Shown one piece after another: positions 5,267 to 49,337 of a DNA stretch of 64,000 nucleotides; position 1 is the stretch's first letter, and every line of letters begins with the position of its first letter. The position numbers were made by a program, and so were the translations under genes. A model generated the notes under the pieces. That model was not told where the DNA came from, did not search any database, and saw only the letters and a list, made by a program, of their open reading frames with translations. The stretch is from Selaginella tamariscina (Eukaryota > Streptophyta > Lycopodiopsida > Selaginellales > Selaginellaceae). The DNA is taken from the NCBI GenBank assembly GCA_003024785.1, contig PUQB01000087.1, positions 460,654 to 524,653 on the forward strand. Direction: 5' to 3'.

Positions 5267-8070
5267 ACAGAATTTATTCCCGAACCTATTTTGGAAGTCT
5301 TGAACATGTTTAAGGATGTGAAGACTTACCGCCTAAGTTACCTCCACATCGAAGTGTGGACCACAGAATAGAGATTTTACCAGGTTCATCGATGACACAT
5401 TCGACCTAATTGATTGCCATATGGTGCACCAATCCTGTTTGTAATGAAAAAGGATGGTACAATGCGAACGTGCGTGAACTATCGAGCATTAAACACAATA
5501 ACTATAAAAATAGTATTCTCTTCCGCGAGTGGATGACTTATTTGATAGGCTATCAAAAGCAAAGTATTTTTCAAGAATAAACTTGCGATCTGGGTACCAT
5601 TAGATTCGGGTAGTAAAGAATAACATTGAGAAGACCGCTTTTCGAATGCGTTATGAATAATTTGAGTTTCTAGTCTTGCCATTCGGGTTGTGCAATGCTC
5701 TAGCAACTTTTTGCATAATGATGGATGATGTGTTTAGAAACTATCTAGACGAGTTCGTAGTGGTGTATATTGATGACATTTTGGTTTTCAGTTCGACAAT
5801 TGAAGAACATGTGGAACACTTGGAAAGAGTGTTTCAAAGGTTGAGAGAGAACTAATTGTATGCTAAGGAAAATAAATGCGCATTTGATCAAATCAAGATA
5901 GATTTCTTGGGACACTTGATCTCATGTGAGAAGGTTGCCATGGATCCAAAGAAAATTCAAGCTATTACGAGTGGACGACTTTGAAAGACATGCATGAAGT
6001 TAGATCATTTCTTAGTCTAACAGGGTATAATTACTAAAGATTCATAAAGGGCTACTCGGAGATAGCAGCCCGTTGATAGATCTCATAAAGAACATTCCAT
6101 GGCATTGGACTCCAAAGCGCCAATGTGCATTCGTCAAATTCAAAGAAGCTATCTCTTCTGAGCTAGTTTTGCAATTGCCCATCTTTGAAAATCCCTTTAA
6201 AATAGAATGTGACGCTTTTGACTTTACAATTGGTGGTGTATTGCAACAAAAAGGACATCCAGTGTCCTTTCGATGGCCTACTCATGAAAAGAAGATGTAT
6301 GCTATTGTTGCTTCCTTGGAGTATTGGCGTCATTATCTTTCAGGTCATGGCACTATGGTTTAAACAAATAGTGTAACTCTAAGGTACTTTGAAATGCAGC
6401 CAAAGTTATCACCAAAGTATGCCAGATGGCAGCAGAAGTTAGCTCAATTTCAACCTGCAATCAAACATAAAGCTGGAAAAGATAATGTGGAAGCAAATGC
6501 ACTCAATAGGAAGGGTCAACTTCATATTATGTCAGCACCAGTGTCAACTTTGGTGGATGAATTTGTGATGGCGTATCTACAAGACAAATTTGCTAAGGAG
6601 GCTCTAAACTTGGTAGCAAAGAGGAAAACAGGTTCATCAATTACGAAAAGATGGTAATATTTCAACAGGAATAAAAAGTCAAATGGATGCACTTAAATGG
6701 GCACATTTTGCGGTACAAGATGGAGTTCTTTATTATAAAGAAAGGAGACTTTATGTTCCATAGAGGACATGGAGGGAAAGGCTGTTAAGAAAGCATCACA
6801 ACGTTCCTTTAACAGGACATGGTGGAAGGCATAAGACGTTGGCTTTGTTGAAATAGGATTCTATTGGTCGGGTATGATAAACGATGTTGCCAAAATATGT
6901 TAAAACATGCCCCACATGTTAACAAGTGAAGAATCAATCGCAAAAACAAGCCGGGAAGTTGTAGTGTCTACCAATTCCTAGAGCAGCCATTTCAAAGTGT
7001 TACTTAGACTTTTATGGGATTGTAAAAATCTTGTAGTTTTAACGTGTTCATGGTAGTGGTTGATCAGTTTTCAAAGGTTGTTAATTTCATTCCAACTATA
7101 GAGACAGTGAATGCAATTTAAGCAGCAAAGTTGTTCTTCCACAAAGTCGTAAAAGTACGCAAGCTACTGAAAATAATGATCTTAGATTGGGATCCTCGAT
7201 TTACAAGCAAGTTTTGGGGAATGTTATTTAAGCAGTTTGGTACGATGTTGAAGTTCAGTACGGCTTACCATCTGTAAACAGATGGTCAAATGGAAAGGGT
7301 GAACCGGCAAGTCGAGGACTATCTTAGGTGCTATGTTTAAAGTGATCAACTTGATTGAGCTGAACACTTGGATATAGCTAAAATATGTTATAATAACTTG
7401 ACACACACTGCGATCGGTTGTAGCCCGATGGAAGTGTTAACTGGGAATAAGGGTGGTATTCCTCAGAATATGGTGTTACCAAAAGATGATGTCAATCGAG
7501 TTCCCTCTATAGTAGAGTTTACTGGGCAGTTGTATCGGACATGGAGCAATGGCTGCAGCACAATAAAGGTATTGTCAACAATACAATAAGCATTGACGGG
7601 ATGTAAAGTATTAGGTTGGGGATATGGTATGTTGAGTACTAGAAACTTGAATGTTCCAACGACTCTTTCGAGGAAGTTTCTATCGCACTACATAGGTCCA
7701 TACAAAGTGGTGAAGCGAGTAGGAAAGTGGCTTATGGGTTATATCTTCCTCCGGAGTTGGGAGCGATACACAATGTGTTTCATGTCAATTTGCTCTAACC
7801 ATTCCACAAGGATGAAAACATCCACAGAGATATGAAAACTTACGTCTGCTTCCTAAGCTGGTCGGCAATGCGAAGGAGTTCAATGTTGAGTCAATTTTGG
7901 AGGCAAAAGATATTAAACGCCGAGGGTCGCGGAGATGTAAACAAGAATATCTTGTTAAGTGAAAAAGGTTACCCAGCATGCGAGTCGACATAGGAATCAT
8001 TAGAGAATTTACAGAATGCGATGGAGGTAGTGAATGAGTTTGAGGCGAGGTCTCAAACTATTGAATGATA
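5267..8070 (+). pseudogene. Decayed pol (RT-RNase H-integrase-chromodomain) of gypsy element 2
   Basis: The order is RT (about 5,430-6,000; [20 protein letters not shown] with the YxDD-type box retained, FLGHLIS), RNase H (6,073-6,363; IECDAFDFTIGGVLQQ, YAIVASLEYWRHYL), integrase (about 7,140-7,790; WDPRFTSKFWG, YNNLTHTAIGCSPMEVLTG, HYIGPYKVVKRVGK) and a chromodomain-like tail at about 7,875-8,030 (FNVESILEAKDIKRRG, then YLVKWK). The last element suggests a chromovirus, whose chromodomain guides integration into chromatin. Many stops and shifts are present. Confidence 0.88.
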
Positions 8071-9770: not shown

Positions 9771-12374
9771 GAAGGTTCAAAGGTTGAGGCATGTCTCCAA
9801 CCTCCTCCTCCACTTCAAGCTAATAATAGAGTTAACAGAGGGGTTGTAAAGGTGACATATGTGAGCCATGTTCGTGACACCATGTGTAATTCTTGAATCT
9901 AAGAGGCGCTCACATCTTGGAAAATAGTGTCACATGAAGATGTGACATTAGGCTAGAGGCATATGGTATAATGCCCAAGGCATGCCTTTTGAGGTTGTCT
10001 CATGAGCTTAATGTCGAGATATTGGATACTCTAATAAGTAAGCATGCTTGTGCTTATATAAGGGTGCTAAGCCTTAGGCATCCACTCAAGAGGTTAGGTC
10101 TTGTAATTGGATATGTTATTAGCACACTCAACTATGTGGGGTGTTTTCTTATGGGGTTGAACAATCTAAGCTCATTAACAAGAGCTCATTCATGAGGCAC
10201 TCGTAAGATTGTGTACTTAGTCTAACCTTAAGGAGTTTATTTAGCAAAACACTCATGTTTGCCTACAATGCACACTCGTGTCCTCACTAAGTATTAACCT
10301 TAAGTTTAAAGTATGACTTGGCCACTCAAACCCTTAAGTATTAATTATGATTCAAGGTACCCTTGTTGCTCAAAAGGGATTGTACTTTTGAACAAGGGTA
10401 ATATCTCAAGGGATAAGTGACAATGCCTTAGCTCTGTCACGGGGGTATGTGCAAGACACGTCTCCTTACTAGCGTTAGGACATAAACTTATCTAGGTCTA
10501 CTAGGGTAGAATCATAAATTCTACTCAGGTTATCCTTTAGGGTTTGAAAAGTAGTCATTCTAGGAGACTTAAGGTAGAACCCTAAGTCTCATGCCTATTT
10601 TGAGCATATGAGTCTGACTCTCAGGGTTATCTTGAAAGATTTAGTGTTGCTCACATAGGGTGTTAACATTAAATAGCCACTTGGTAACCATGTGTTGCCA
10701 CATGTTATTCATTTGGGTTAAAACTCTAACAGGATCGTTGAGGATGTCAAACATGATTTGCAAATCAACGCTAATGAGAACACAAACAAACTAGCCGACC
10801 ATGTGATCGTTAAGACCGGCCAATTTTAGGTTCTTGGAACATCTTTGTGATGGGCAATGATTTTGACAATTTGATGGAACAATAGGCCGACTAACATGTG
10901 CTTCAAGGCGAGCATGAACCTCATCGGATTTTTTATCTTGATCAAATAAGAACCATCTAGTTATGGCTTGAACAATTTCATCACATTCTTTTTGGTGATT
11001 GGTTCACTATCATCATCCTCCTTGTTGTTTTGCGGGTGGAAGAACATGTCACTGAGGACCTACTTGACATCGACATTGAGATGGTGAAGTTGAGCTCCTT
11101 GCCCTCACCAACATTAGCTAAGCAAGTTATGTTAATTTACTTAACTATTATTACACTATAAATAATATAAGGAAAATTTCTAACTCATTTAACCCTCCCT
11201 TTTAATATTATTTAATTACAATTAATTTGCTTAATTAAGGTTCTCTAAAACATAGATGCAACATTAGTGTTTTATAGATTTGTAGTTGGGTACCGATGCA
11301 CACACTCTTCTTATCAAGAATTGATAAGTATTTCATCATAAATTTACTTGAGTTTAGCATTATTAATTCATTCACAATCAATTTCAATAGAAGGATAGGA
11401 TTTACAAATGCAGATTCATTTTTTATTACTGAAAGGGACTCCATGAGACCCATAAAATCTTAAAATTAAGTAGTGCATACGTATTATTAATTATGTATTT
11501 ATATTGCTTAAATAAATTAACTTTAAATTGGCCAAATTGAATTTAATATTCTTAATTCATTTAACTATTTTCTGATGCGGCCTCAATTTTTTTAAGATAC
11601 ATAAATGTATGAATAGTGATTAAAATAGTTAATTGTTGGTATAGTAATTCTCATTATTTAAACTATAAGATAATTTTATAGATAAATATTTAAAAGATCA
11701 TTTTTTAGATAGATATTAACTATAGATTATTCATTATTCAGAACTCCACAAAATAAATAAATAAATAAAATCTCTATTGGTTATAGTACATAGTAAATGT
11801 AAAAAAACATAAAACCATCGTCTTGAAATTGTAAGGTATGCTAATAATGAATTATTTTAAATAATAACTAAAAATTTTAAACTCAAAATTATTTCAATTG
11901 TGGAAAATATCCATTTTGCCATACATAGCCAATTATATATAAAGTTTATGGAATTATTTTTAAATGATTTAGCTCTTAAGTTAAAATTATAAATTTTTAT
12001 TATACATTATTATTCATAATCGTAATGACTAAGTTGTTATAATTTATATACATAAACATCTTAATGAATATGGTTGTTAGATTCAATTTATAGTTATAAA
12101 TTGTTAAATTACATATTTAATAATTTATAATTGTAGATAGTACATTATCCTTAAAGGTTTTAATATATTCTTTAATGACCAATAATTTTATGAATGTTTA
12201 ACATGTTAAAAATAAAGAATATATTTTTAAATGTTGTTAATGACATGTATTATAAAATGTTGTCAATGATTAGTTTTCATAACCCCCTTTGTATTTACTA
12301 TACATTTTATTATTGAGTTAATTAACAAGGCCAATTTCTAAATTATTAAATAAATGGAAACAAACACAATTTAT
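9771..12374. other. Gene-poor intergenic sequence
   Basis: I recognise no conserved gene. The segment 9,771-11,100 may hold old repeat remnants that I cannot name. From 11,100 onward the sequence is very AT-rich and low in open frames. The giant transposon begins at the right border. Confidence 0.6.
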
Positions 12375-12401
12375 ATGCACGTTGTAACTAAAGTGGGCAT
12401 G
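12375..12401 (+). repeat. Left terminal inverted repeat, copy 1
   Basis: It begins ATGCACGTTGTAACTAAA and continues GTGGGCATG. It pairs with 27,172-27,197 in inverted orientation with three mismatches over 26 bp. The same left end is at 41,900. Confidence 0.88.
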
Positions 12402-12662
12402 ATACGTGAAAATGGGAATATAAAATAAATTACTAATTAATACTTAAGTTTTAATTATTAATTAATCATTTAATTAATATGTAATTAAGCCTTAAATATT
12501 AATTAATTAATTAATTAATCCTTCAATAACCTTACTTAGTAAGGAATATTCCTAAAATATCTTAGAATATTCATATTATTCTAAAAATAGTTTACAATAA
12601 TGAAGAAATACTATCAAACATAATTACAAATGAAATCATTTTCTTATCAACATGTTAATTTT

Positions 12663-13860
12663 TTATAAATACTTTCTTTCTATCATACAAAGAAATCTTT
12701 TCATTTTGTCTAAATCATCACTCTCCGGATTAATCAAATCATTTTGGTCAATATCTTGATGTTGTTGCCACCACTTAACACTCTCACGAATGCAATTGGG
12801 AGTTGCCATCCTTGTTAATACATAAGATGTGATAAGAGAAGGTCTGCATAAAGGCTCATCTAAAAACTGACGTTCCTTAAGAATAATATTATAAAGCGCC
12901 CGGTTGCTATCCTTCATTTTATAAAATTCAATATCACGAGAAAGAAAAGCTTCAGGAAATGTATGATACGGTGGATACTGCTCACAAAAATTTTCGAGAT
13001 TCTTCTTTCTGAGGCACGTATCCAAGTAGTTCACTAGCTCATCCATGATATCGGTATCAGAATATGGATCGAAAGTGATTGGATGAATACAAGCAATGTT
13101 TTGGTTGAGCATAGCCTTCTGAGGAGAGTCGTCTACTACTAACATCTGTGCGTTCTTCATTATCCTTAAGCGACTGATCTCCCCATGAGTCCCAATTATT
13201 CTTTCATTCTTGAAGAAGTATGGCTTGCTTTTTCCTTTCTTATATTGTGAAATTCGAGAGGTTTATGACACATTCGCTGGTCAAAAATCCAATCTTTACG
13301 AATCACCTCTTCTGCAACACTACAATGTTTCTTAAGTAAATTCAACAGCGGTGTTAAGTTATGAATCTGCATGCATGACCAAATCCCCACAAGCGCACCC
13401 ATCTCCTTAAGCTTTTGAAAGAGACGATCCAACCCTGGACGAAAAATAATATCATATCGAAATTTACCATGACAAGGAATGAAATCTCCTTGTTTGATTT
13501 CTTTTTTCTATCCTGGGCCTTTGTCGATGAAGCAGAACACCATTGACATCCAACAACACAATATGGCCATGAGTAACATGAGATAGCGTTGCCTCTTGAA
13601 TACTTTGCAAATCACTTGTTTGCTCCCACATTTATCCGTTGCCACTATCTCGTTGCCTATCCCTTCATCATTTAATTGTACATCATCCTTACAAGATTCA
13701 GATATTGCATGCGCTGAAGAAATTGATTTCGGAATGAAGCCAATAAAAATGATGATGAAGTGGCCCCCATGGTAACGATGTTTTGAGCTGCATTATTATC
13801 CATTTCCTGCATGAACTCTGTCATTCTGACATGTGGCACAAGAAATTGTCGCCAAACCCC
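12663..13860 (-). pseudogene. FCP1/NIF-type HAD phosphatase-like cargo gene, copy 1 (frameshifted)
   Basis: This is the same gene as 42,189-43,378, in a worse state. The C-terminal half is open from 13,160 to 12,663 and includes the HAD motif IV-like LVVDDSPQKAMLNQNIACIHP. The middle is open from 13,432 to 13,196 (LFQKLKEMGALVGIWSCM). Compared with copy 2 it has a 2-bp insertion near 13,230, single-base losses near 13,507-13,515 and 13,733, and losses of 4 bp (near 13,628) and about 11 bp (near 13,758). It cannot make the full domain. It lies downstream of the ParB/methyltransferase gene on the same strand. Confidence 0.8.
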
Positions 13861-14096
13861 TCTCTTACCTCATGGCAATGCTGAAAATCCATGTTCTCAA
13901 TTATTTCATTACATCTGCAAAATGATAATTAGCTGACCTTAAAATTATCAAGGTATATTATTTACCTTGTTAATGTGTGACCCATGTTTGAACTAAAAGC
14001 TTCATTAATCCTTGAGAATTTATTTTCTGTACAAATATAAAAGAAATATACAAAAATGCCTTATGTTACACTCATTTACAACTATTCATCACTCTA

Positions 14097-17000
14097 TCAA
14101 TTCATTATCAATTCTTCTTCGCTATTACCTTCTGAGTGAGGCGAAGAAGGTCTAAGCCGCTTGTGAGATGGTTCAAGATCTTCTGCATCTTCTATTGATG
14201 TTTCCATGGGTCCTGGAGTGTGCGAATGTTCTGTACTCCTCGAGATAACTTCCGGTCTAATATCTGATTGAAGTTCGTTCTCAGACTCCGAGATTGAACC
14301 AGATTCACCTTCAGAGCTATCGCACTTATCTGGAGGGAACTTTCTCAAATACGCCTTTATGGATTCGTTGGGGTACTCAGTTGAGACCCAATCTATCCAC
14401 TTGTTCAGGTCCTCAACCATGGTCTTATCCTTTTCAACGGCAAACACACATGTATGCCGAAGGTAACACTCCTTCAAGACGGACCCCCTAGTGCAGTAGT
14501 CAAAAACCCACGCATCACTGTGAGGACCCCTAATCAAGTTGACGATGCTCCGTGCCGCTTGACTTGTAATGTTTGGATAACGTACATTGCCGAATACGTC
14601 ACTCATACCTATCGGTGTATCGGATGGAGGTTCAGGGCCGTTGGAGTGCAAACAGATGCCTGGCCAGTCATTTGGAAGCTTGAAATTGTTTGGCGCATTC
14701 CTAACAACCAAGTGAACAACGGTATCAATGCACTTGGGATTAGCATCGTTCATATAAAATCCTGTCCAACGATGTCTATTCTTCTTGGCGAAGGCGAAGG
14801 CAAAAGTATCGGTGACATGAGCAAGAATCAAGAAATAAATACCTGAAAAAGTAGGTATCAGTGAAGAGCGCAAGCATGAATTCAATAATAAATACCTTCT
14901 ATGTATATGCTTGCACGGCTAAGTTTCTCCACCAGATCCTCTAGTGCCCTATCTGTCGAAAGATTTTTTGACACCCGCCGATCCATCACGAACAATTGAA
15001 ACGGTTTCCTACAAGCAGTGATGTTACCCCATAAAGTCTCCGAATCTAACAACAAACATCTGTAGGGCTTGTCGTGATTCGTAGCATCCTCCTTTATAAG
15101 GTTCAATTCGGTTCTCCGCTGCTGAAGGACTGCCATAAGAGAAGGCGTCATCCCAATGTTCTCCTTTTTGGCGTTGGCGTGCAATAGATTCTTGCCTAGA
15201 TCTTCCGATTGGTTCACCCATTCGACAAGCATATCATCGTTCGTCACATGCAAATATTTGCTGACCTCTTCATATGTTGAAGTCGAGGTCCAACCCAGTT
15301 TGTGGCAGTGTATTCCCAACCACTCCTTGAAATGCCTGACCGTCTTCAACTCCATTGCCTTGAGATGAAAAGGAGAGGTTGGGCTGCTGTTATTAATTTG
15401 TAGTTTGCCATCGATCACCAAATCAGCCAAGACTTCCATCTCCTCCATCGTTGTTCCATTTAAAGGCTTCAACCATGTGAGCTTGAAATCGTTGTCTACA
15501 TCCTTTGTAGATTGAACAGACTTAGCCTTCGGCGTCTTACTGGGTTTCTTTGCAGACTTTTCTGAGGGCTCCCCTTCACTTGTCTGCTTCTTCTTCAGTG
15601 TTCCTTTTGAAAAGGATTCCATAATCCCCAACCATTTGGCAAAGATCCTATCTTCGGGGCAAGAAATCAACATCATCAGAAAGGATGTTTCCTTCCCGCC
15701 CACCTGGGCAAAATCAACTGCTGCAATTTCTTCAACTCTCTGAGGAAAAAGACAGATTAATATACCGGCGAGATAAATCCCGCCCAAACAATTTGCTTAC
15801 CCGGTATTCCGCAGATTGTGTATTCCCTGCGGTAGCTCTTTGTGGTCGCTGAAGAGATTCCCACACGGCTCGCGTGTGTTTAAACTTCTCCCATATTTTG
15901 CTGTTGTAGTGGTTGGTGTCGGCAGCGTCCCATTCCGCCGATAACTTATGGTACTGCTCGATTGTGAGATTCGGCTTAGCTAAAAACGCCGATCTTTTTG
16001 TCAGCTTCTCACGGGTATGCTCGGAAAGTTTTGTTGCCATCGTTCCTTTGTTGTGTTCATCGAGAAGTCGTTGGGCTGCCGTTATTGTGTGCTGGCCACT
16101 AATGATGTAGTACTTGATAGATTTTTATTCTCCGTCTGAATCTTCATGAGTTGTTCTGGTGTTGTGATCCAGACTTTGTCAGCGCCCTTCCTTCTTTCAT
16201 AGTATGGACACAAAACAGCATTATGTGGAACGGTATAAGAATTGTCGTCCTTCATCTTCTCCATGAGCTCAGCTACACGTTCCTGGTTGAGTGGCCTGTA
16301 ATTGAAGTTTGGAAATCCCTACAAGGATAAATCTTATCATCCAACATCATTTCCTTGTGACTTATTGCAGCATGAGATGCCACAGGTGCAGCTGACAAAA
16401 CGATTGATGATTTTCTTTTGCGATCCGAATCAACATGTGTGATCCCCGACTGCAGCTGTTCTAGTGTTCTCGGTACACTCTTCCAGCTCCCAAAGCTCCC
16501 TAAGCAAATTGAACGTGATCTGTAGAGAACCTGAGACCGAGCCACCCTCTCAATCTCCATTATGATGTCGCTGTGTTCTTCTTCAATGTGAAGAGGGAAG
16601 ATTGCTCCACTTGCTGATTTTCTGTATTGTGAAGCAATATCTCCTGACAATACACCTACTCGATGAGTCTGAAGATTTCGAAGTAGACATCCAGATGGAT
16701 CCCCTCCATAGATGGGCTTTCGTTGAGTTGAAGAAGAACTCCAAGGTCAACATCATTAGTGAACACGTGAACGTCATTATCCACAAGTCGACAAAACCAC
16801 CCGAAATTAATGTTGTAACTGACGACCTCTGGATCCGAGAACGTGACATTGGATGGAACAAGGCATATGTGTCGAGATCGTCCAATCTGGGTTCGCAGCC
16901 TGCTTTCGGGTGCTTGACTAGCGAATCTACTTTCCATTGTTTTGCTTGTCCATGAGATGTGACAGAGGTTAATTTGACAGCAGCCATGGTTGCTCCAATG

Positions 17001-17222
17001 CGCTTCCCATTTATCTTAAAATATGGCCAAGTTGATTCCAGAATCCCCCTGCCCATCTCTTCTCCTGCTCTTGTCTTTAATGTCACCTCAATTCCACATC
17101 TGAATACAAAAATGATTAGTTCAAGTATCCGAGTATAACAGATTTTATTTTAATTCTTACCCAGAATTTGACGACGACTCCATACTAATGACTCGATCTC
17201 CTTGTTTGATCAAATCGTCCTT
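14097..17222 (-). pseudogene. ParB-like plus N4/N6 DNA-methyltransferase-like cargo gene, copy 1 (frameshifted)
   Basis: Reading from 17,222 leftwards, a first coding exon (in-frame ATG at 17,183; donor at 17,160) is followed by an unrecognised N-terminal domain, a ParB/sulfiredoxin-like domain (RPLNQERVAELMEKMKD), a Lys-rich linker (about 15,620-15,500), and a methyltransferase-like C-terminal region (NITSQAARSIVNLI, then AWVFDYCTRGSVLKECYL) with an acidic tail carrying a KRLRP nuclear-signal-like patch. Predicted introns are 15,740-15,800 (61 bp) and 14,843-14,895 (53 bp), both GT-AG and keeping frame. Against copy 2 it has a deletion of about 16 bp near 16,312, a 1-bp deletion near 16,123 and a frame break near 16,880. 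The enzymatic motifs look degenerate. The fold assignment is by motif pattern only. Confidence 0.72.
15767..15784. repeat. Single palindrome unit inside the cargo-gene intron, copy 1
   Basis: GGCGAGATAAATCCCGCC differs at two positions from the array palindrome GGCGGGATTAATCCCGCC and is identical to a degenerate unit at about 18,861. It lies wholly in the predicted 61-bp intron of the ParB/methyltransferase-like gene. Confidence 0.85.
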
Positions 17223-17522
17223 CTGCAAAATAATACACTATAATAAAATTATATAAAAACGCACACACACTTGTATAAACCCGAATATACAAAAATAATA
17301 CACAGAGAGAAGTAGACGTAATTAACTGTCCGAAGCTCACATTTGTGTTAGTGCAAAAGAAAGATAACATTTCGTTTTAGAACCACCACAAATGTGAGCT
17401 CTGGACAGTTTTACATAGATTCCTAGCTTTTACTCGAAATATTATGATAAGATGATAAAAGTAAATAAAATGAGATATGCAACTTATATATACTAATACA
17501 CATATATATTCACATGGAAGGT

Positions 17523-19140
17523 GCGGCGGGATTAATCTCGCCACCCCTTCAATGCCTCCTGAAAGAGTGGGCGGGATTAATCTCGCCACCTTTCTGGAGG
17601 CCTTGAACGGGAGTGCGGAATTAATCTTGCCACCCTTCTCGGTCTCAGAGAGAACTGGGCAGGATTTATTTCTCACACCCCTTCAGTGACTCCAGAAAGG
17701 GGCGGGATTAATCTCGCCCACCATGTAAGGATGGTTAAATGAATTTCCCCACCCTTCCCAATTCTCTCCATTGGTATGTTGAAAACCTTCTACGTCTCAG
17801 ACAGAAACGTTTGGGATTGGTCCGACTCACCAATGGAGAAAAAAGGAAGGGTGGCGGGATTCATTCCTCCAACAGGCATTGAAGACTCGGCGGGATTAAT
17901 CCCGCCGCCCAGGGCCTTCACTCGGTCCCTATGCGGCGGGATTAATCCCGCCGGACGCCAATTCCCTGCGCGGAATCGGGCGGGATTAATCCCGCCGCCT
18001 AGGCACTTCAGGCAGGCCAATGGCGGCGGGATAAATCCCGCCCGATTCCGCGCAGGGAATTGGCGTCGCGGGAGATTAATCCCGCCTCCCAGGCCCTTCA
18101 CTCGGGCCTTAGTCGGCGGGATTAATCCCGCCGAACGCCAATGCCCTGTGCGAAATCTTGCGGGATTAATCCCGCCGCCTAGGCCCTTCAGGCAGGCCAA
18201 TGGCGGCGGGATAAATCCCGCCCGATTCCGCGCAGGGCATGCGTACGCGGCGGGATTAATCCCGCCCACCATGTAAGGGATGGTGAAATTAATCCCACCA
18301 CCCTTCTCAGTTCCCTCCATTGGTATTTTGTAAACCTTCTCCGTCTCAGACAGAGTTAGTCGGGATTGATTCAACATACCAATGGAGGAAAAAAGAAGGG
18401 TGGCGGGATTAATCCCGCCACCGGGTAATGAAGGTTCGGAGAGACTAATCCCGCCGCCCTCTCGTAAATCATGCGCTCACACATATATATTGGCTGCGGC
18501 ATTTTGAACAGGGATGGGTGGGGGCGGGATTAATCCCGCCGCTTATATCCTGCGGAAGTGCCTGAGCGGCGGGATTAATCCCGCCGCCCTCCGCGAAGGG
18601 CATGAGCGTGGGGCCGGATTAATCCCGCCGTTCATGTCCTGCGTGAATTCCCTGGGCGGCGGGATTAATCCCGCCGCCTTACGCGCAGGACATGTCATGC
18701 AGGCTCTTCGGTTAGCCTTCCGTGCAGGATCTTTCATGCAGGCTCTTCGGTTAGCCTCATGAGCGGCGGGATTAATCCCGCGCCCATCCCCTGTAAATGC
18801 CCTGCGCGGAATCCGGCGGGATTAATCCCGCCCATTAGGGCCTTCACACAGGCCATTGCCGGCGAGATAAATCCCGCCGCATTCCGCGCAGGGCATGGGT
18901 GAGCGGCGGGATTAATCCCGCCGCCGAGGCCCCTCACGCAGGCCATGGGCGGCGGGATTAATCCCGCCGCTCTTCGGTTTGTCGTAGAGCGGCGGGATTA
19001 ATCCCGCCGCCCATAGCCTGCGTGAAGGGCCTCGGCGGCGGGATTAATCCCGCCATGGCCCAACCATAGGCCCCACCATATAGCGGCGGGATTAATCCCG
19101 CCGAGGCCATAAACCTATAGCGGCGGGATTAATCCCGCCG
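17523..19140. repeat. Palindrome array A, copy 1 (about 31 units)
   Basis: The unit GGCGGGATTAATCCCGCC equals its own reverse complement. About 31 exact or near copies occur. The centres (ATTAAT) at 17,895, 17,941, 17,985, 18,031, 18,075, 18,121, 18,165, 18,211 and 18,255 are spaced alternately 46 and 44 bp, so the true period is about 90 bp with two units. Spacers recur in both orientations (for example CCGATTCCGCGCAGGG and its complement). Left-end units carry C-to-T type changes (attaatctcgcc). Each unit has two CpGs in an otherwise AT-rich element. Confidence 0.95.
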
Positions 19141-19149
19141 CTCGAGGGG

Positions 19150-19218
19150 CTTAGCGTGTGTGCGAGAGATAAAATTAATAAATAAAAAAATTATACAGAT
19201 AAAACACACACATATATA

Positions 19219-19265
<47 letters not shown>

Positions 19266-19900
19266 GTATGTATAGGAGTGTACGTGTGTGTGCAAGAGAT
19301 AGATAAATAAATAAAATTATACAGTACTGGTACACATAATATATGTGTGTACATAGGTATATATATGTGTGTATATGTATATCGTGTGTATGCGTGTGAG
19401 CGAAACAAATAAAATCATACAGATAAACAAACACACACACACACATATATATACACAGGAGTGTGCGTGTGTGTGCGAAAGATAAAACTAATAAATAAAT
19501 AAAATTATACAGATAAACACACACATATATATGTGTATATAGATATATAATCCATAGAGAAAGAGAGAGAGTCTGTGAATATATAAGCATATATATAAAC
19601 TAGTGTTGTATGTATGTATATATGTATATAGGTATATATATATGTGTATATGTATATTGTGTGTATGCGTGTGTGAGCGAAACAAATAAAATCATACAGA
19701 TAAACAAACACACACACACACACACATATACATACACAGGAGTGTGCGTGTGTGTGCGAGAGATAAAACTAATAAATAAATAAAATTATACAGATAAACA
19801 CACACATATATATATGTGTGTATATAGATATATAACCCATATGAATATATAAGCATATATATAAACTAGTGTTGTATACTATTTGTTAATATGCATTGAT

Positions 19901-19962
<62 letters not shown>

Positions 19963-20226
19963 GCAGTGTGCGTGTGTGTGGGAGAGATAGATCAATAAAA
20001 AAAATTTACAGATACTGGTACACATAATATATGTATGTATATATGTATATAGGTATATATATATGTGTATATGTATATCGTGTGTATGCGTGTGTGAGCG
20101 AAACAAATAAAATCATACAGATAAACAAACACACACCCACACACACATATACATACACAGGAGTGTGCGTGTGTGTGCGAGAGATAAAACTAATAAATAA
20201 ATTTATACGCACACTCCTATACATAT

Positions 20227-20259
<33 letters not shown>

Positions 20260-20265
20260 CAGATC
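19150..20265. repeat. Microsatellite field (CA/TG, TATA, GTAT), copy 1
   Basis: Long runs of TG/CA, TA and GTAT alternate with a recurring segment of about 250-300 bp marked by gagcgaaacaaataaaatcatacag and gataaacaaacacac. The field is therefore a higher-order tandem duplication of a microsatellite-rich unit. No gene is present. Confidence 0.9.
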
Positions 20266-21484
20266 TCACCTGTGTGCACAGCCGCCGCCCGATTTCACAG
20301 CCGCCGCCTCTTGAAACCCTAAGAATATACCTAAACCCTAAAGGAATTAAATATATATATTAACCCTAATAGAATATTCCTTCTGAGAATATACTTAAAC
20401 CCTAAAAAGAATAAAATATAGATTCGCCCTAAACGAATATTCTTTCATTATATTATTAGCGCGTGCGTGTGCGTGGGTGTATCACATACACCCCAAAAAT
20501 ATAAATCATGCAGGGATTTAACATGTGTGTGTCCATGAGAGTGTTAAAGTTTCATGTGTATCAATACATACATACACATTGCATATATTAATACACATAA
20601 TATATACATACACACGTGTATACACACAGACATACATACATATTACATGGGTTTAGGGTTTAGGGTTTAGGGTTTTGGATTTAGGATGGATCATGCATGG
20701 TGTGTATGTATGAGAGAAGAGAGAGTGTTGAAAAATTATTTTTGTACACATTGCATATATTAGTACACATATATACTTACACATATTATACACAGATATA
20801 CATACATAGTATATGAGAGAAGAGAGACAGTACATATTATGGATCATGCATGGTGTGTATTATACACACAGACATACATACATATTAGTACATAATATTA
20901 GAGAGACCGAGTACATATTATAGATCATGCATGGTGTGTATGTTTGAGAGAAGAGAGACAGTACATATTAACATGGATCATGCATGGTGTGTATGTATGA
21001 GAGAAGACAGAAAGTACACATATATACATACAGAGTACACATATATACATGCACACGTGTATACACACAGACATACATACATATTACATGAGTAAATTCA
21101 TTGTGTTACATATTAGGGTTTAGGGTTTAGGGTTTAGGATGGATCATGCATGGTGTGAAGAGAGAGTGTTGAAAAATTATTTTTGTACACACATGTATAC
21201 ACAGGGTTTAGGGTTTAGGGTTTAGGGTTTGCTCCCAACAAGCTTAATATAAATATTACACATGTAAATTCAATGTGTTACATACACACAGATTGAGTAC
21301 ATATATCATACATGCGTTGAACATGATGTTTTCAATAAAGAAGCAACATATTTCTTCAGTTTGGTTTAGGGTTGTGCATGTGTGTGCATATGTGTTTTTA
21401 AGTTCTTGTAATGCGTGTGTAAATTTATGATTGTGTTTATATATGTGTGCAAAACAAACATCGAATAATTAAGAAAATAATATT
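20266..21484. repeat. Telomere-like tracts and GGATCATGCATGG repeats, copy 1
   Basis: TTTAGGG tracts of three to four units lie at 20,649-20,676, 21,114-21,138 and 21,203-21,230. Between them ggatcatgcatggtgtgtat with a following gagagaagagag tract recurs five or six times from about 20,690 to 21,150, and cccta-type motifs occur near 20,330-20,430. No open frame of interest is seen. Confidence 0.85.
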
Positions 21485-21905
21485 AATAAACACACTATGA
21501 ACATATTTTAAATTATACATAATAATATATGATTTTATCTAATATATAGCCATATATAGTTTTAATAATATATATTAATTTAATATTGATAAAAAGGTTT
21601 AACATTGAAATATTCTTGAAATAATAAGAAATTAATTGAGAAAATCCCATTAATATATACAAATGTAAATTAAGTACTCAAATAATTAACTAAATTAATT
21701 ATCATAATCATGTTTAATATTGGAATATTCTTGGAATAATAAGAAAATAATAAAGAATATCCCATTAATATAAAGAAGATTAATTACTCAAGTAATTAAG
21801 GAAATGATATTAATATATATTTATTAAAACTATATATGACTATATATTAGATAAAATGATGTATTATTATGTATAATTTAAAATATGTTCATAGTGTGTA
21901 TTAAT
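21485..21905. repeat. AT-rich inverted repeat, about 95-bp arms
   Basis: The arm at about 21,485-21,580 (cactatgaacatattttaaa, then tatatagccatatatag) is the near-exact reverse complement of about 21,812-21,905 (tttaaaatatgttcatagtg). The loop is about 230 bp. The structure is kept in copy 2 near 50,870-51,290. It could form a large hairpin in single-stranded DNA. Confidence 0.75.
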
Positions 21906-22140
21906 TTAATATTGATAATAAGGTTTAACACATGAATATTCTTGAAATAATAACAAATTAATTGAGAAAATCCCATTAATATATACAAATGTAGAATAAT
22001 TACTGCAATAATTAAGAACAAGACTAATTTAATTATGATAATCAGGTTTAATATTAGAATATTCTTCAAATATTAATAAAATATTAAAGAATATCCCATT
22101 GATACTAGGAAATGAAAACTAAATACTCGAGTAATTAAGA
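21597..22140. repeat. Four diverged tandem AT-rich units
   Basis: Four blocks of about 95-100 bp begin near 21,597, 21,711, 21,923 and 22,042. Each contains gtttaa, a nattcttgaaataataa-like segment, a tcccattaatat block, and ends aataattaag or similar. They interleave with the inverted repeat. Confidence 0.7.
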
Positions 22141-22472
22141 AAATAATAATAATAAACAGACTATGAATATATTTTAAATGATACATAATAATATATCAAT
22201 TTATTTATTGTATAAGTATATATTTATATATATATATAATATAAAATATACTTGAATACTAAGAATGTAGAATATAGTCTAAAATTTCGTAATATTAAAC
22301 AGCTTGAATCACTTGAATAACATTAAATGCAATTTTAAAATACTCATTGGAACTGGAGAGTATATATGTCAGAGTGTCGGATATTTGTGTCAACTCATCT
22401 TAAATTTTATTTTCTGTTCTTTTTAAAAAATTTGAATTTCTGACATATGTATTGTCGGTCTGACATGTAAAT
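22141..22472. other. AT-rich region before the transposase leader
   Basis: A third partial copy of the 21,485 arm (gactatgaatatattttaaatg) lies at about 22,160. The rest is AT-rich with no gene. It presumably contains the transposase promoter, but no clear TATA box can be singled out. Confidence 0.4.
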
Positions 22473-23565
22473 TTGAAAATGCATTTAATTTCCCACTCAA
22501 ATTCAGATCTGGTTCTTTCTCCGGCAAGGGTTTCTTCATTTCTGTATTTTTCACTCTTTAGATCTTCTTTTTTCTTCATAGTGATCATCTCAGGAGCGAG
22601 ATTAAATTGGGTGCTATTCTTTATAGGAAAGCACGGCGCCTTCAGTGCTGTTTACAAGTAAGTATTATAAACAAATTTAAAAATACTTATAAAGATTCAC
22701 TCTCTTACATTCTCTCTTAAAATTACAATTTAGGGGTTTAGGAATGCATTAGGATTATAATATATTCCGTTAGGGATTTATCCCGTTTAAATATCCTTTT
22801 AACTTAATATTCTAGGTTAACCGGGCGGCGGGATTAATCCGGCCATTTCTTTTTCGCCTCTTCGAAGAGGTGGCGGGATTAATCCCGCCACCATCTCTCG
22901 GGCAATGCTTCTCCGCCACTGAAAAAGAGTGGCGGGATTAATCCCGCCGATAACCTTCTCAACTGATGAAGAGTTACCAGAATTTATTAGAAAGAGTTGT
23001 CGGCGGGATTAATCCCGCCAACCATTTTAGGAGGCAGGGAAGGGGTGGCGGGATTAATCTCGCCACCACATCCCTGTTTTAAGGATTTGGGGACAGGATT
23101 TATCCCGAGATCTCTTTGAAATCATAGTTTTGGAGAGAGTTATGTGCGGGTTTAATCCCGCCACCCATTCCCCGTCGTAAGAATTGTGGGCGGGATTAAT
23201 CCCGCCGACTCCTCCGAAGGGGAGTCGCGGCGGGATTAATCCCGCCGCCTTTCCTCGTCGGAGGAGTCGGCGGGATTAATCCCGCCGGACTCCCCCCGAG
23301 GAGGAAGAGGCGGCGGGATTAATCCCGCCGGCTCTTCCTTGTCGGAGGAGTCCAAGGCGGGATTAATCCCGCCAACTCTCTCCGAAGGGGTTGAGTCGAC
23401 GGCGGGATTAATCCCGCCCATCAGTTGTATTAATCAAACATGAGATATTATCTCTAAACATAATTATGTATTATTGCATATGCATATTATTAAGTAACCG
23501 TAATTCAGATTTCTTAGAAATATTGCATAAAAGATATCATAAATAATACAATTATTTATGTGCAG
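22473..23565 (+). other. Predicted 5' leader exon and intron of the transposase, copy 1
   Basis: A strong donor (ACAA|GTAAGTATT) at 22,658 and acceptor (TTATTTATGTGCAG) ending at 23,565 define an intron of 908 bp. The sequence before the donor is pyrimidine-rich like a 5' UTR. The open frame there does not join in frame to the transposase, so the leader is read as non-coding. Palindrome array B lies inside this intron. The same sites exist in copy 2 (52,035-53,313). There is no transcript evidence. Confidence 0.5.
22825..23418. repeat. Palindrome array B, copy 1 (13 units)
   Basis: Thirteen exact or near copies of GGCGGGATTAATCCCGCC occur, at 40-45 bp centre to centre in the best part (23,195, 23,235, 23,275, 23,318, 23,362, 23,407). 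Several spacers are themselves inverted repeats (GACTCCTCCGAAGGGGAGTC), so hairpins alternate with palindromes. Spacer sequences differ from those of array A. Confidence 0.95.
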
Positions 23566-23571
23566 GACAAT

Positions 23572-26500
23572 ATGTTTAATACTGGAGATAAAGTATGTCT
23601 TCTTCGGAACAACGAGATAGTTGGCACTGGAACTGTGGAAGTTCGAGATAATAATGCATCATGTCACAATATTGCCCAAGGATCTTGTGTATACGTATGG
23701 GTGAACACCATTTACAAGTATGTTGAGGTTCTGGGAATAGAATTTGAGGAGGGTTCTCCTGTATTGTGGAATTTGGATGAAGTCAAGGCTGACACAGAAT
23801 ATGCAGAGTCACAAACAAATAGTAGCACGAGTTTACCAGATGATGGCTTGCCTGCTGTGATGGATGAGGTGATTCTCTTTCTTTGTGAGATTGAAGTCGG
23901 AAGAGGCATCATCACAGCTATAAATCCAATGGAAGCAGTGTCAGAAGAGAAACTAGGGTCCGACTTCGTGGGTGTAGTTGTGACAGAGGTTTCACCTAAT
24001 GGCACATTGTATCCTGGATCCCTCGTGAGGTGGCGAACATCTGAATTAAGACGGCAAGATGGTTCAACATATTCTGGGTTGGATTTCAATAATAACAACC
24101 CGGAAGAACAACTCATATTTGAAGAGGTTCCTTGCATTGGTCTTATTGTAAGAAAAAGGCAATTCATGGGTTGTAGATCTTCCCCTGCAAGTTTCAGCAA
24201 GAGGGTAAAGATGGATCCTACATCTTCCGAAAGTGTTACGAGCATTTCCACGATTGATTGTTGCAAGAAGAAGTGTTGTCAGATGGCAGACCGGAATGAA
24301 ATTACCCAATGTAGACATGTCTTTCGTATGCTCACCCAAAAGCAAAGGCATGAGTTTGTATATGCTGCACTAACTGGGTGTATTGATGGAATGGCCTCGG
24401 ACACAGGTTATCAGAGTACATCCATGGTATTTAATAAGGTGGCCATCTGCTTCAAAGCTTGGTATAGTATATACGGGATCCCAAAGACCACGTTCTAACC
24501 GTCGGAGGGATGAGTGGCTAGATGGAGCGCGAACCTCAGTTCATGGGAACACTCGCTTGGTCAAAACCCGCTCTCACATCATAGCAGCCATAGAGATACT
24601 CAAGGCTTTTGTAGAAGCAAATGCAGACAGGATGCCTCACAAATGCCGAACCACAAATGCAGGGGTCAGGGAAAATCTCAAGGTTTTACCTTCAATCTAC
24701 ACTCAATTGAAACTGTGTGAACATGTGAACAAGTGCCTCAGTTTGATGGGGCTCCAAGCTGATCTGCACTTGTACCTTCAACAACATATGGAATACTCAT
24801 TTTAAGGATGTGGAAATTGCAAAACACTCTAGCTTTTCTAAGTGTGACACTTGTACATCATTGAAGGCTGCAGAGGCTTGTGCAAAAACCTTGGTGGAGA
24901 TCACTACCATTCAAAGGAAGATGGAGGCCCACATGATTGCACAACAAACTTGCCGGTCTCAGTACTATGCACACCGCATGCTTTCTGTGTCACGCCCATC
25001 AGAGTACCTGTGCTTGATCCATGACAAGATGGATCATTCAAAGACCAGCATTCCAAAGCTCTTTGCAACACCAAAGTGCCTTGGAAATGTCATGAAACTT
25101 CCGATTTCATTGACAGGTGTGCTAACACATGGACACGGTTGTGAGTCATATGGACACTTTTCACTTCCACATTGGTCTAGCAACTCCAATTTCACTATTG
25201 GGTCGTTAGCCATGTGTTTCAGAAACCTTGAAGCCCACTCACAGACAAGTCCTATCAGTGATCTCAAAGTGAAGAAACAACACCTTCAACCTTTACATAA
25301 TGCTCTCATGAACACATCTGCACTTGAGGCTACTTGGGAATATGAGAGGCATTGTCAGCAACCTGCACAAAAAACAGATGGCCCTGTTGAGAGTTCAGGT
25401 TCAGTGAAGGGATCTAGCTCAAATAGTGTACATGTGTCCTCAACATCAAATAAGCTTCCTCGTCATTTGCTTTTACAGATGGATAATTGTGCAGGCGAGA
25501 ACAAAAATAGGTAAATCATTTTGCTTAAGGGTTTCTCAAGCTCATACTTACTTTTATTTTCTAGATATGTGCTAGCATACTTGTCAATGCTTGTTGCCAA
25601 AGGTGTGTTTGAAACAATCACGCTCAGTTTCCTTATGGTTGGTCACACTCATGAAGATATTGATGCGTTCTTCAGCAAGGTCTCCAACTCTACAAAAAGG
25701 ACAAGTGCACTTACCTTACCGCATATGATGAATCTTTTTGAAAATTGCATCTCCCAAAAAAGTTGTGCTTTGCTTATGACTGAGGTGCCAGACTTCAAAA
25801 AATTTCTCAAGGAGTATATAAAAGAAGGGAGTGATTCTTTAGTTGGTCACCTTGTGCCGCTACAATTCTTTTTCTCCATACGAGATGGTATACCTATTAT
25901 GCAGTACAAGTTACGGCCATCAGAGCAGGAGTGGTTACCGAAAGAGGGCTTAATGCTCTTCAAAAGTGGAGAGGATGGAAAGCCACTTTCCCAGAAGGAC
26001 AACCAGACCCTATTCCATTGAGTGCCCAACTCAAGGAACAAGAGGTTATTATTGATGGCATCAAAAAATATGTGGCATGGGTTTAAAAATCGATACCAAA
26101 GAATTCTGATAAGGCAACTGGTTACTCAGAACTATATAAGCATGTGGTCAACTATTGGGAGACTATTGTTCGAGAGTTGGAAGGGCCTACTGTCACAAGT
26201 ACAGAATTGCAACACCCTTTCTGGCCTAAAACAAGGTGGCGAGAGGAGATTGAAATGACATCACTGAGCATAGACGACATAGAAGCCAGTAGTGATGTGG
26301 AAGTGCAAACCCCACACTTTGTTGGACAAAGGAACCAAAAACCTAAAGCATACTTTGATTGCTGCAAGGATCTTCAAAAACTAATGATGGTTCTCATTAC
26401 TCCAGATGCGTCATATAATCAGCCTATTTGGATGGGTCAAATTATCGACACACCTGAAGTAATCACAAAAAATAGTATTGTTAAGGTTGCATGGTTCAAA

Positions 26501-26692
26501 CCACAAAAAAGGCGACACGAGAAGGAGAGCGAAAGATATAATGGATGCCTAGAGAAAACATGGTCTCCCAATTAAAAAGACCCAGCATGTTTTATAAATG
26601 TTAAATCCATTCGATATGGGTGGATGTTAAGAAGCGTTGATAAAGTCACGATTAACAAAACTGCAAGGGAATGTATGTTTTCTGAAGCTTAA
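23572..26692 (+). pseudogene. Putative DDE/RNase H-fold transposase (DUF7869-like), copy 1, frameshifted
   Basis: The first ATG after the leader acceptor gives MFNTGDKVCLLRNNEIVGTG, a small beta-rich N-terminal domain. The central region has a CDTC zinc-knuckle-like pair (about 24,843). The C-terminal catalytic-type region holds three acidic clusters: LIHDKMDHSKTS (about 25,015), LLQMDNCAGENKNR (about 25,470) and FLMVGHTHEDIDAFF (about 25,630). DNCxxENKN followed by VGHTHEDID is the hallmark I associate with DUF7869 proteins, taken here as RNase H-like transposases. A 54-bp intron (25,511-25,564) splits the N-R codon and keeps frame. The last part (PIWMGQIIDTPE) ends at TAA 26,692. An extra base at about 24,498 creates a stop, and the frame shifts again near 26,010 and 26,570. 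Confidence 0.78.
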
Positions 26693-27171
26693 AGCAATTA
26701 CAAAATTATAAATATCATATATTTAATATTCATAATTATTATAAACTCTTTAATAATAGTACCAAATTGTATACTTAACTATATAAATTTAAAAAATGAT
26801 ATGGAAGATTGACTATATTATTATAGGATTTTATATATATATTATTACTACTACAAATTTTTAATTAATAATGTTATATTTAAATATTAATATTTTAATA
26901 ACAACATCAATATTTATATAATGTACCTCTTATGCTCTTCCTTAATTGTTATATTAGGCAATATATTATATAATTTAATACATTCTACTTTTATAATGTT
27001 ATTAATTTTTGTTCAATGAATGTTATAATTTATTAAAAGGTAGAATACAAAATAGAATATTTTAAAGAATATTCTCTTTTTAAACATATATTCTAAAGAA
27101 TATTCCTTTAATATTAGAAAATGCTAATTAAATAACTAAAATTGCTAATTATTAGGAAATGGGACTATAGC
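26693..27171. other. 3' flank of the transposase up to the right TIR
   Basis: This is AT-rich and without a gene. Near 27,050-27,110 the palindrome AGAATATTCT-like motif recurs three times (aaagaatattc), mirrored by ggaatattcc and agaatattc near the left end (12,542-12,575). These may be subterminal repeats. Confidence 0.5.
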
Positions 27172-27197
27172 CATGCCTATTTTAGTTACAACTTGCA
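27172..27197 (-). repeat. Right terminal inverted repeat, copy 1
   Basis: It ends CATGCCTATTTTAG followed by TTACAACTTGCA, the inverted counterpart of the left end. TTTAT follows directly as the target duplication. Confidence 0.88.
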
Positions 27198-28463
27198 TTT
27201 ATGAAAATAAATTATGATTGTAATTCATTTGAATATAATAATTAACTTTGCATTTAAATATAAATTAATTATAATTTATTAACTCTTTATCTTACATACA
27301 CAAATGAAAAACTAGGTACATATAATGAATCCAATGGACATTTGTAAAATAAATCGAATATGTATAAAGAGTTAAACGAAATTAATATTTATTTATTTTA
27401 ACTAAAGGGTTATTCTTTTAGGATTTTTAAATTCTATGAACATATAAATCATAAAATTTTATAAAATATATTTTTATTATTTTTATAACTTTTTTATGTC
27501 ACATACAAAAGGTCAATTATTTTCAAGAGGATATTTATCAAATAAAACTTAATAAGTTTATTAACTATGATTCTTATCTTATAAATGAATATGAAAATTT
27601 CTGTGAAAATAAATAATAATTAAAAAAGAAATATAAAAGAAAAAAGTAACACAAACAAATAAAAGAAAAACAGATATGACGCATACTAAAACTATAATAT
27701 ATACACCTAAAATGAGATGTGTTCACACAATGAATTCATGTTTTTTTTACTTTGTTTTAACTTATATTTTCACATGGAAAATTATAAAAACAAATAACTT
27801 TATATGATAAAAGAAATTAACACAAAGAATTCATATTATTTTTAATAATTTCTTTCATTAAAATTTTTTTGATGTTGTAATAAATAGGCATCCTAAATCC
27901 TTTCGAAAAGTATTAAAAATTTTGCAATCAAATTCAATTGTATTAAATGGATAACATAAGGCATAAAATGTTATACTGCATAACTATTAAATATATAACC
28001 ACTATAGTTTTACTTGTGTAAGCAATAAAGATCAACCTTTTACATGTGAAAAGAAGCCTCTTTTAATTTTTGCATTAAAAGTTAAGAGTTTTTTATTTAC
28101 TTAATTATTATTTGTATACTATATTTAAGTGTATTTTAATTTAGCTTATGAATATGTTAATGTGTTTTTTTGGTTCGCATTTAAATAAATATGTTATATA
28201 CGATTTGTTTTATGAATAATATATTTTATCATACTTTATCATTAAAATCTTTATGTTTGAATTATATATAAATATAATATCTTAAAACCAAATTACTATT
28301 AGTATATTCTGATTTCATATGATTATTATTTCTTTAATAAAATTTAAACATGAGTTTCAATATACATGATATAATGTTAACGAATATAAGAAGACTACTT
28401 ACTACATCAACAGTTTAATGTAGTTTTAGAACTTACGTAAAGTTTCATGAGCAATTTTTATTC
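27198..28463. other. AT-rich intergenic DNA
   Basis: No gene, RNA gene or clear repeat is recognised between the transposon and the 3' end of the PHIP1-like gene. The last 100 bases presumably contain the 3' UTR of that gene (- strand). Confidence 0.6.
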
Positions 28464-33280: not shown

Positions 33281-34008
33281 TGTCATAGTTTTTACTATAA
33301 CTCTTGGAGGCTAATTATTATCCCATATTGTATTATGCTAACTGGTAGTAAATGTGTAGTTGAGTATATGGTGATGATCCGACTAAGTGTCATTGGATAT
33401 TTATAAAAAAATTTAAAATTTACCTTTTATAAACTTTCCCTGATTTTGAAACGTCCTAATTTTAACATTCCAATGAGATAGATGAGTTCAATGGTTAGTA
33501 ACACCCCTAATGACCTAACCTAGTAGGGTTTAAGGATAGGAATTAAGTTAGGCTAAACTCATTTTATTAATAATTTTTTGTGTTAGCCCACTTACATAAA
33601 TATCAAAAAGGGTAGGCTCCATCACAAGTATATATAGTGAGCATTTTAAGTTAAAAAAGAGTTTCGTTATTTTTCTTATCGATGCAAGCTTAGATTGTGC
33701 TGTTAAGACACAACTCTTTATTGTGCTGCCACTTTTAAACAATATGAGTACGTCCCATGTTGGTAGGATTATGCCTTTATAATTAAGTATGTCGCATCCA
33801 AGGAGTTAATTAATTCTTCTTATTTAATAATTTACTTGCAATCCTAAAAGGCATTGCACGAATTCATATTTCACAAGAATAGTGGCTATCTCATCCATCT
33901 TGCAACTCGGCTAATACACACATCCCGACTCACGAGGTGAGCATTGACTGTGGACTTGGCCAATTGGGCGTGTGAATTCCTAAAAGACAAGTTCTTAATA
34001 GTTGTGGA
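33281..34008 (+). repeat. Solo LTR remnant related to gypsy element 2
   Basis: It begins TGTCATAGTTTTTACTATAA like the element 2 LTRs and contains gtacgtcccat, the gcattg and gtgagcattgactgtggac blocks in the same order. Its 3' end is deleted compared with the copy at 41,331-41,880. It lies directly before the uninterrupted paralogue of the copy 2 insertion site. Confidence 0.8.
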
Positions 34009-38280: not shown

Positions 38281-38291
38281 TGCACTTGTAC

Positions 38292-38300
38292 TATATATAA
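38292..38300 (+). promoter_or_regulatory. Possible TATA box of the hevein-Hog gene
   Basis: TATATATAA lies 32-40 bases before the ATG at 38,332. The spacing would give a very short leader, so this is only a weak candidate. Confidence 0.3.
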
Positions 38301-38331
38301 CAAGTGCCATTTGCAGTTGTTTCATATCGAT

Positions 38332-41899: not shown

Positions 41900-41926
41900 A
41901 TGCACGTTGTAACTAAAGTGGGCATG
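41900..41926 (+). repeat. Left terminal inverted repeat, copy 2
   Basis: It is identical to the left end of copy 1 (ATGCACGTTGTAACTAAA, GTGGGCATG). It pairs with 56,955-56,980 with two mismatches over 26 bp. Confidence 0.88.
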
Positions 41927-46777: not shown

Positions 46778-46799
46778 CTGCAAAATAATACACTATAAA

Positions 46800-49276: not shown

Positions 49277-49337
<61 letters not shown>

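Follow-up and report, generated by a model that had tools for sequence, protein, structure and literature searches.

The window analysed here, a stretch of 64,000 nucleotides from Selaginella tamariscina (contig PUQB01000087.1, positions 460,654 to 524,653 of the forward strand), contains two copies of a giant DNA transposon that is bounded by terminal inverted repeats (TIRs), flanked by 4-bp target-site duplications (TSDs) and equipped with cargo genes (Table 1; all positions are those of the window). Each copy carries a gene for a putative transposase with the DUF7869 domain, an FCP1-like phosphatase gene, a long gene that resembles ParB and methyltransferase proteins by motif, and two dense arrays of one 18-bp palindrome, which are the most unusual part of the element. 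The reading that we favour, and as a whole consider likely, is that of a giant TIR transposon of the Sola kind whose arrays serve as binding sites for a protein of the element. An initial annotation of the same DNA had recognised a giant cargo-bearing TIR transposon present twice, and the TIRs, the TSDs and the identity of the copies bear this out.

The TIR measures 27 bp (ATGCACGTTGTAACTAAAGTGGGCATG), one base longer at its start than the word first reported, so that the element ends read ATGCAC...TTGCAT, and the left and right repeats agree at 24 of 27 positions in copy 1 and at 25 of 27 in copy 2. An exact search of the window for the 17-bp terminal word TGCACGTTGTAACTAAA gives two positions, 12376 and 41901, and a TIR scan of the window allowing up to 8 mismatches found no ends beyond the four of copies 1 and 2. 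Of 49 boundary choices tried, 2 yielded a duplication of at least 4 bp in both copies: ATGCAC...TTGCAT gives 4 and 4 bp (TTAT/TTAT around copy 1, AAAA/AAAA around copy 2), and an asymmetric choice (start +3, end +1) gives 4 and 5 bp and does not fit the TIR. The chance of a random 4-bp match in the surrounding DNA is 0.0057. These boundary tests rule out the 5-bp duplication proposed initially, for which the element had been begun at TGCA; the starts given at that time (12375 and 41900) are retained, and the right ends are shifted to 27198 and 56981.

Copies 1 and 2 are recent. BLAST, which counts gaps, puts their identity at 94-96%, and over the aligned columns of four segments it is 97.6-99.6% (99.6% for the left-end segment including the FCP1-like gene, 99.4% for the segment of the ParB/methyltransferase-like gene, 98.6% for that of the DUF7869 gene and 97.6% for the right-end segment). 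That the element moved by transposition, making a 4-bp TSD, is almost certain. The flanks of the two copies are unrelated, as initially claimed: in shuffle controls on 500 bp the left flanks align with a score of 20, equalled by 180 of 200 shuffles, and the right flanks with a score of 29 (one 17-bp AT-rich match), equalled by 20 of 200. The earlier preference for transposition over segmental duplication is further strengthened by an empty site paralogous to the copy 2 locus, where 33529-33999 matches the left flank of copy 2 and 34015-34602 its right flank (BLAST). The joined copy 2 flanks align with this locus on either side of the insertion point, with automatic gaps adjoining the junction, and the single AAAA was read from the letters. 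This related empty site with one AAAA demonstrates that insertion brought copy 2 to its place. Flanks and empty locus share 394 of 453 aligned bases (87.0%) and 509 of 561 (90.7%), which lies below the identity of copy 1 to copy 2, and the local duplication is therefore probably older than the insertion. Segmental duplication as the source of both copies, which might be suggested by their lying 30 kb apart in one window and by local duplications elsewhere, near 33-41 kb and 57-61 kb, is extremely improbable, since identity does not continue past the TIRs, the two copies have separate 4-bp duplications and differing flanks, and the empty site contradicts it. The local duplications themselves (33.5-36.9, 38.8-41.8 and 57-61 kb) are both direct and inverted, are 82-94% identical, and carry a Hint-like open reading frame (ORF; PF01079, E 0.0035, below cut-off).

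We regard the DUF7869 protein as very probably the transposase of the element. The domain, proposed initially from the letters, is matched by Pfam at 1.4e-27 on exon 2 of the copy 1 gene, which is modelled with one intron placed by hand (25511-25564). An initial search gave 2 relatives among 5811 candidates, and a profile search gave 386 at E<=1e-3 among 8000 candidates scored; the named moss proteins among the 120 of these that were listed are two from Physcomitrium patens and one from Ceratodon purpureus. In a 51-row alignment D515, D518, D676, D716 and D718 (numbering of the relative P0025) stand in columns that are at least 90% conserved. Judged by strict patterns, and with many of the 121 DUF7869 proteins compared being short, the three D motifs are found singly in 109, 68 and 89 proteins and all together in 49, the spacing of the second to the third being constant in 49 of these 49. 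The conserved aspartates would correspond to the D-D-D pattern expected of RNase H-fold transposases, with a presumably catalytic role. A quick tree of 56 rows (proteins of at least 600 amino acids among the 121, together with P0002 and the window protein), in which the program flagged the window row for its long branch, groups the window protein with P0002, P0021, P0025, P0039 and P0042 (SH-aLRT 100). The three moss proteins (P0026, P0046 and P0033) have the same Pfam domain but fall apart from it in a different clade of that tree. No second Pfam family stood above cut-off beside DUF7869 on the transposase ORFs and the seven relatives scanned; a second domain, PF26133, is precomputed for the close relatives P0021, P0025 and P0042, and was not reported for P0021 and P0025 in the Pfam scan made here. 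In copy 1 the observed/expected CpG ratio is 0.40 in the DUF7869 gene (23560-26650) and 0.76 in the ParB/methyltransferase-like gene (14000-17200), and the changes between copies comprise 36 transitions and 6 transversions in the former and 13 and 7 in the latter; their history of methylation may have differed.

As to its superfamily, we incline towards placing the element in Sola. Sola elements are described as having a DDD transposase, a 4-bp TSD, TIRs of 11-1124 bp and in some cases more than 15 kb of length, and as being present in Physcomitrella (PMC10741241). In the window the TSDs and the empty site, the conserved and presumably catalytic aspartate columns, the TIR of 27 bp and the lengths of 14.8 and 15.1 kb all agree with that description. 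The initial annotation had recognised no named superfamily, which is now doubtful, as the mis-set boundary had given 5 bp, whereas 4 bp, D-D-D and size fit Sola. A close parallel is Sola1-1_Ec32 from Ectocarpus, a 21.5-kb element in which a gene for ParB and a DNA methyltransferase lies opposite the transposase (PMC12477816). Both are giant TIR elements whose accessory gene and transposase are on opposite strands, but in Sola1-1_Ec32 that gene is reported to encode ParB plus a DNA methyltransferase, and here it is ParB/methyltransferase-like by motif only; the FCP1-like gene and the palindrome arrays of the present element find no mention for Sola1-1_Ec32 in the accessible part of PMC12477816. 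This Ectocarpus report, which in turn refers to two earlier ones, was the only one on ParB-methyltransferase genes of transposons found in titles and abstracts of the papers listed, a search that is no proof of absence, and the accessible parts of PMC6431247 and PMC8226300 do not mention Sola.

The less probable alternative, which nevertheless deserves consideration, is that DUF7869 elements constitute a separate superfamily, likewise with 4-bp duplications. It would accommodate the facts that the likeness to Sola is one of described features, with homology presumed, that DUF7869 is the sole family above cut-off in the Pfam scans of the transposase ORFs and relatives, and that one search for the term DUF7869 found it in none of the papers of the literature searched. 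The Sola features that could be tested fit, however, and Sola1-1_Ec32 shows the same opposed orientation of accessory gene and transposase; membership of Sola remains our preferred placement. Other superfamilies were set aside. The Kyakuja-Dileera-Zisupton (KDZ) group likewise contains giant elements with accessory genes (PMC12477816), but Zisupton duplications are 8 bp (PMC12730594) as against 4 bp here, and Pfam scanning of the transposase ORFs, and of seven relatives, yielded no KDZ match. EnSpm/CACTA elements have a 3-bp TSD and CAC...GTG ends (PMC12730594), and Ginger elements have TG...CA ends, TIRs of 40-270 bp and a Gypsy-like integrase (PMC10741241); the present element has 4-bp TSDs, ATGCA...TGCAT ends, a 27-bp TIR and no rve match among the eight element ORFs scanned.

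The palindrome arrays, also noticed initially and found in both copies, consist of one 18-bp palindrome (GGCGGGATTAATCCCGCC) that occurs, with up to 3 mismatches, at 84 sites of the window, 50 of them exact. All lie inside the elements (41 in copy 1, 43 in copy 2), none in the remaining 34,094 bases and none in three mononucleotide shuffles; in viral contigs a single site in one contig was taken as chance. The four arrays hold 82 of the 84 sites, including all 50 exact ones, with a start-to-start spacing of 44-46 bp in 42 of 78 cases and of 36-269 bp in the rest. From the left arrays to the first modelled ATG of the ParB/methyltransferase-like gene there are 342 bp in copy 1 and 378 bp in copy 2, and a further upstream exon of that gene is possible. 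Within the arrays the 18-mer is 96-98% like its majority and the 20-bp flanks 43-50%, a figure that understates the similarity of the spacers because the sites were aligned in one orientation. In the 34 variant sites, which are not independent in that many are common to both copies, 52 pair positions are changed, and 52 of 52 changes break the dyad, none being compensated. Nor do the array flanks pair beyond chance, the observed pairing being equalled by 1815, 196, 1565 and 384 of 2000 shuffles in the four arrays. Because dyad changes go uncompensated and the flanks pair no better than chance, it appears to be the letters and not the pairing that are kept, as for a protein-binding site. We accordingly predict, with some confidence, that the arrays are protein-binding sites; that the protein which binds them is the ParB/methyltransferase-like one is a tentative prediction.

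Two other roles for the arrays were considered. One is structural: as RNA hairpins or DNA cruciforms they could influence replication, or supply or obstruct silencing by small RNAs. In favour of this, the dyad of the motif is perfect, and RNA of the right array of copy 2 (52566-53165) folds at -533.6 kcal/mol against a shuffle mean of -282.2 (n=100, z -36). Though this fold is very stable, the 52 uncompensated changes and a dyad that does not extend into its flanks beyond chance give no support to RNA or DNA structure as the constrained property, and we consider a structural role improbable. Quite unlikely, too, is a role as sites inside the element to which the transposase binds, comparable to repeats in other DNA transposons: the arrays are present in both copies and bracket the gene-poor middle, but their distances from the element ends are about 5.2 kb and 3.8 kb. 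Subterminal repeats of known elements lie near the ends, and the array hexamers GGCGGG and CCCGCC are absent within 1500 bp of any end, which argues against subterminal transposase sites.

For the long gene opposite the transposase, the label ParB/METHYLTRANSFERASE was given by eye, from a stretch NPNFNYRPLNQERV...YYIISGQHTITAAQRLL that resembles the ParB consensus, and from a C-terminal FDYCTRGS that is presumably placed like methylase motif I; profile tests supported neither. The initial label of a ParB/methyltransferase-like gene is thus a motif resemblance that Pfam, PHROGs, NCBIfam, tblastn and hhalign left without confirmation. If the gene is of that family, its catalytic motif is degenerate. 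The copy 2 model contains hand-modelled introns and a frame break.

Outside the elements, a second gene of ParB/methyltransferase type occupies 61075-63999 (minus strand, cut by the window end). It matches N6_N4_Mtase at 3e-9 and, in a profile comparison, four phage methylases at 98%; it also shows a stretch with ParB-like motifs (ddrB-ParB, E 0.18), and could be part of a further giant element lying past the window end.

Several points tell against the favoured reading and should be weighed together. The ParB part of the element gene had no ParB match in Pfam or PHROGs (E <=10), in NCBIfam or by tblastn against phages, and returned in those searches weak, chance-level matches to unrelated families. 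Its methylase part had no match in Pfam or PHROGs, scored 0.1% in hhalign against the four phage methylases, and compared with the methylase gene at 61-64 kb reached 0.05% (hhalign), with no BLASTP hit at 1e-4. The hhalign test, of single sequences against a four-row profile, is not very sensitive, but the same profile recognised the outside gene as a methyltransferase (98%), so the test can work. No relatives of the ParB/methyltransferase-like protein were found among 7999 candidates scored, and two pattern scans of viral contigs gave 1 and 48 matches, none confirmed. As regards the arrays, recent tandem expansion alone could keep their units alike, the orientation of the aligned flanks and the shared variant sites reduce the force of the figures given above, and CpG content gives no independent sign of protection from methylation: the observed/expected ratio is 1.0-1.15 for whole arrays and an ordinary 0.59-0.69 for the spacers alone, and this line of evidence was dropped. 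The placement in Sola is a likening to published description, homology of the transposases being presumed, and the copies examined number two, both within the 64-kb window. Lastly, the transposase frame is broken in both copies as sequenced, with the first stop at residue 309 (position 24496) in copy 1 and at residue 44 (position 53449) in copy 2, which may reflect mutation or assembly error. Since both frames are broken, transposase would have had to be supplied in trans from another copy, unless the breaks are errors of assembly.

How such an element might work can be outlined as follows. The DUF7869 enzyme, presumably RNase H-fold with a D-D-D site, would cut at the 27-bp TIRs and so excise the element, and would join it to target DNA at staggered cuts 4 bp apart. 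The arrays at the promoters of the ParB/methyltransferase-like and transposase genes would be landing sites for a protein encoded by the element, most simply the ParB/methyltransferase-like protein, which might mark or open the element's own promoters. The outcome would be self-recognition, for anti-silencing or autoregulation, working in the manner of VANC and VANDAL. In that Arabidopsis system a protein encoded by a transposable element recognises the motif YAGTATTAY, which is densely packed into tandem repeats ahead of genes and within introns (PMC5735166, PMC10398659), VANDAL elements being MuDR elements (PMC12730594). The likenesses are a short motif crowded into noncoding DNA, both intronic and upstream of genes, and motif numbers that change between copies. 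The differences are that the Arabidopsis system has MuDR elements, YAGTATTAY and the VANC protein, and the element described here an 18-bp palindrome with protein binding predicted. Although speculative, and in our estimation rather unlikely, it is attractive to think that a ParB/methyltransferase-derived protein, possibly non-catalytic and unlike VANC, reads the arrays and averts silencing by the host.

Were this so, the element would represent a convergent answer to the same problem that VANC and VANDAL address. For the ParB-methyltransferase proteins that giant algal transposons carry as accessories, it has been suggested that they bind and modify the element that encodes them, the accessible part of the report naming no target (PMC12477816); the arrays would supply DNA target sites for such transposon-borne proteins, and confirmation would carry the idea of self-binding from algae to a land plant. 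The idea is directly testable, as a candidate target is evident in the sequence: near-identical palindromes, nearly all of them placed before two element genes. Independently of this, an element with a TIR, a TSD and an empty site would attach DUF7869, a domain of unknown function whose relatives number in the hundreds, to a concrete transposon.

The remaining cargo gene is the FCP1-like one, whose initial identification is upheld by Pfam (PF03031, NIF; 5.8e-10 in copy 2); in copy 2 an ORF at 42560-43408 is followed by a frame break. FCP1 proteins generally have a transcription-related role via the RNA polymerase II tail, and by analogy we would guess the same of the element phosphatase.

Table 1. 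Coordinates of the two element copies, their parts and the empty site (strand "." as recorded for unstranded features)
Feature	Position	Strand	Remarks
Element copy 1	12375-27198	.	14,824 bp; TIRs and 4-bp TSD
Element copy 2	41900-56981	.	15,082 bp; TIRs and 4-bp TSD
TSD of copy 1, left	12371-12374	.	TTAT
TSD of copy 1, right	27199-27202	.	TTAT
TSD of copy 2, left	41896-41899	.	AAAA
TSD of copy 2, right	56982-56985	.	AAAA
27-bp TIR, copy 1 left end	12375-12401	+	
27-bp TIR, copy 1 right end	27172-27198	-	3 mismatches vs left end
27-bp TIR, copy 2 left end	41900-41926	+	
27-bp TIR, copy 2 right end	56955-56981	-	2 mismatches vs left end
FCP1-like phosphatase gene (part), copy 1	12663-13262	-	NIF E 0.004, below Pfam cut-off
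FCP1-like (NIF domain) phosphatase gene, copy 2	42189-43408	-	PF03031 5.8e-10
ParB/methyltransferase-like gene (motif only), copy 1	14097-17183	-	first modelled ATG 17183
ParB/methyltransferase-like gene (motif only), copy 2	43636-46738	-	first modelled ATG 46738
Single palindrome site, copy 1	15767-15784		2 mismatches; at place of modelled intron of ParB/methyltransferase-like gene
Single palindrome site, copy 2	45306-45323		2 mismatches; in modelled intron of ParB/methyltransferase-like gene
Left palindrome array, copy 1	17525-19139		28 sites, 16 exact; upstream of ParB/methyltransferase-like gene
Left palindrome array, copy 2	47116-48570		22 sites, 13 exact; upstream of ParB/methyltransferase-like gene
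Right palindrome array, copy 1	22827-23418		12 sites, 9 exact; ends 154 bp before DUF7869 ATG
Right palindrome array, copy 2	52205-53165		20 sites, 12 exact; ends 155 bp before DUF7869 ATG
DUF7869 putative DDD transposase gene, copy 1	23572-26580	+	end approximate
DUF7869 gene, copy 2	53320-56309	+	end approximate; frame broken early
Paralogous empty site of copy 2 locus	33529-34602	+	single AAAA at 34015-34018

Short runs of TTTAGGG, the plant telomere-type repeat, occur in the gene-poor middle of both copies (20652-21227 and 50133-50605). Rfam and tRNA scans of the window, the latter run with the bacterial code, gave no matches. Elsewhere in the window we found a chitin-binding domain gene at 38254-38556 (PF00187, 2.7e-8) and an RRM protein (9.1e-17), for which a zinc-knuckle match falls slightly short of cut-off; taken with the introns and the TTTAGGG runs, these would point to a land plant. 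There are also retrotransposon remains at 2422-2724 and 6031-6360, with matches to an integrase core (2.3e-9) and a reverse-transcriptase RNase H (1e-18).

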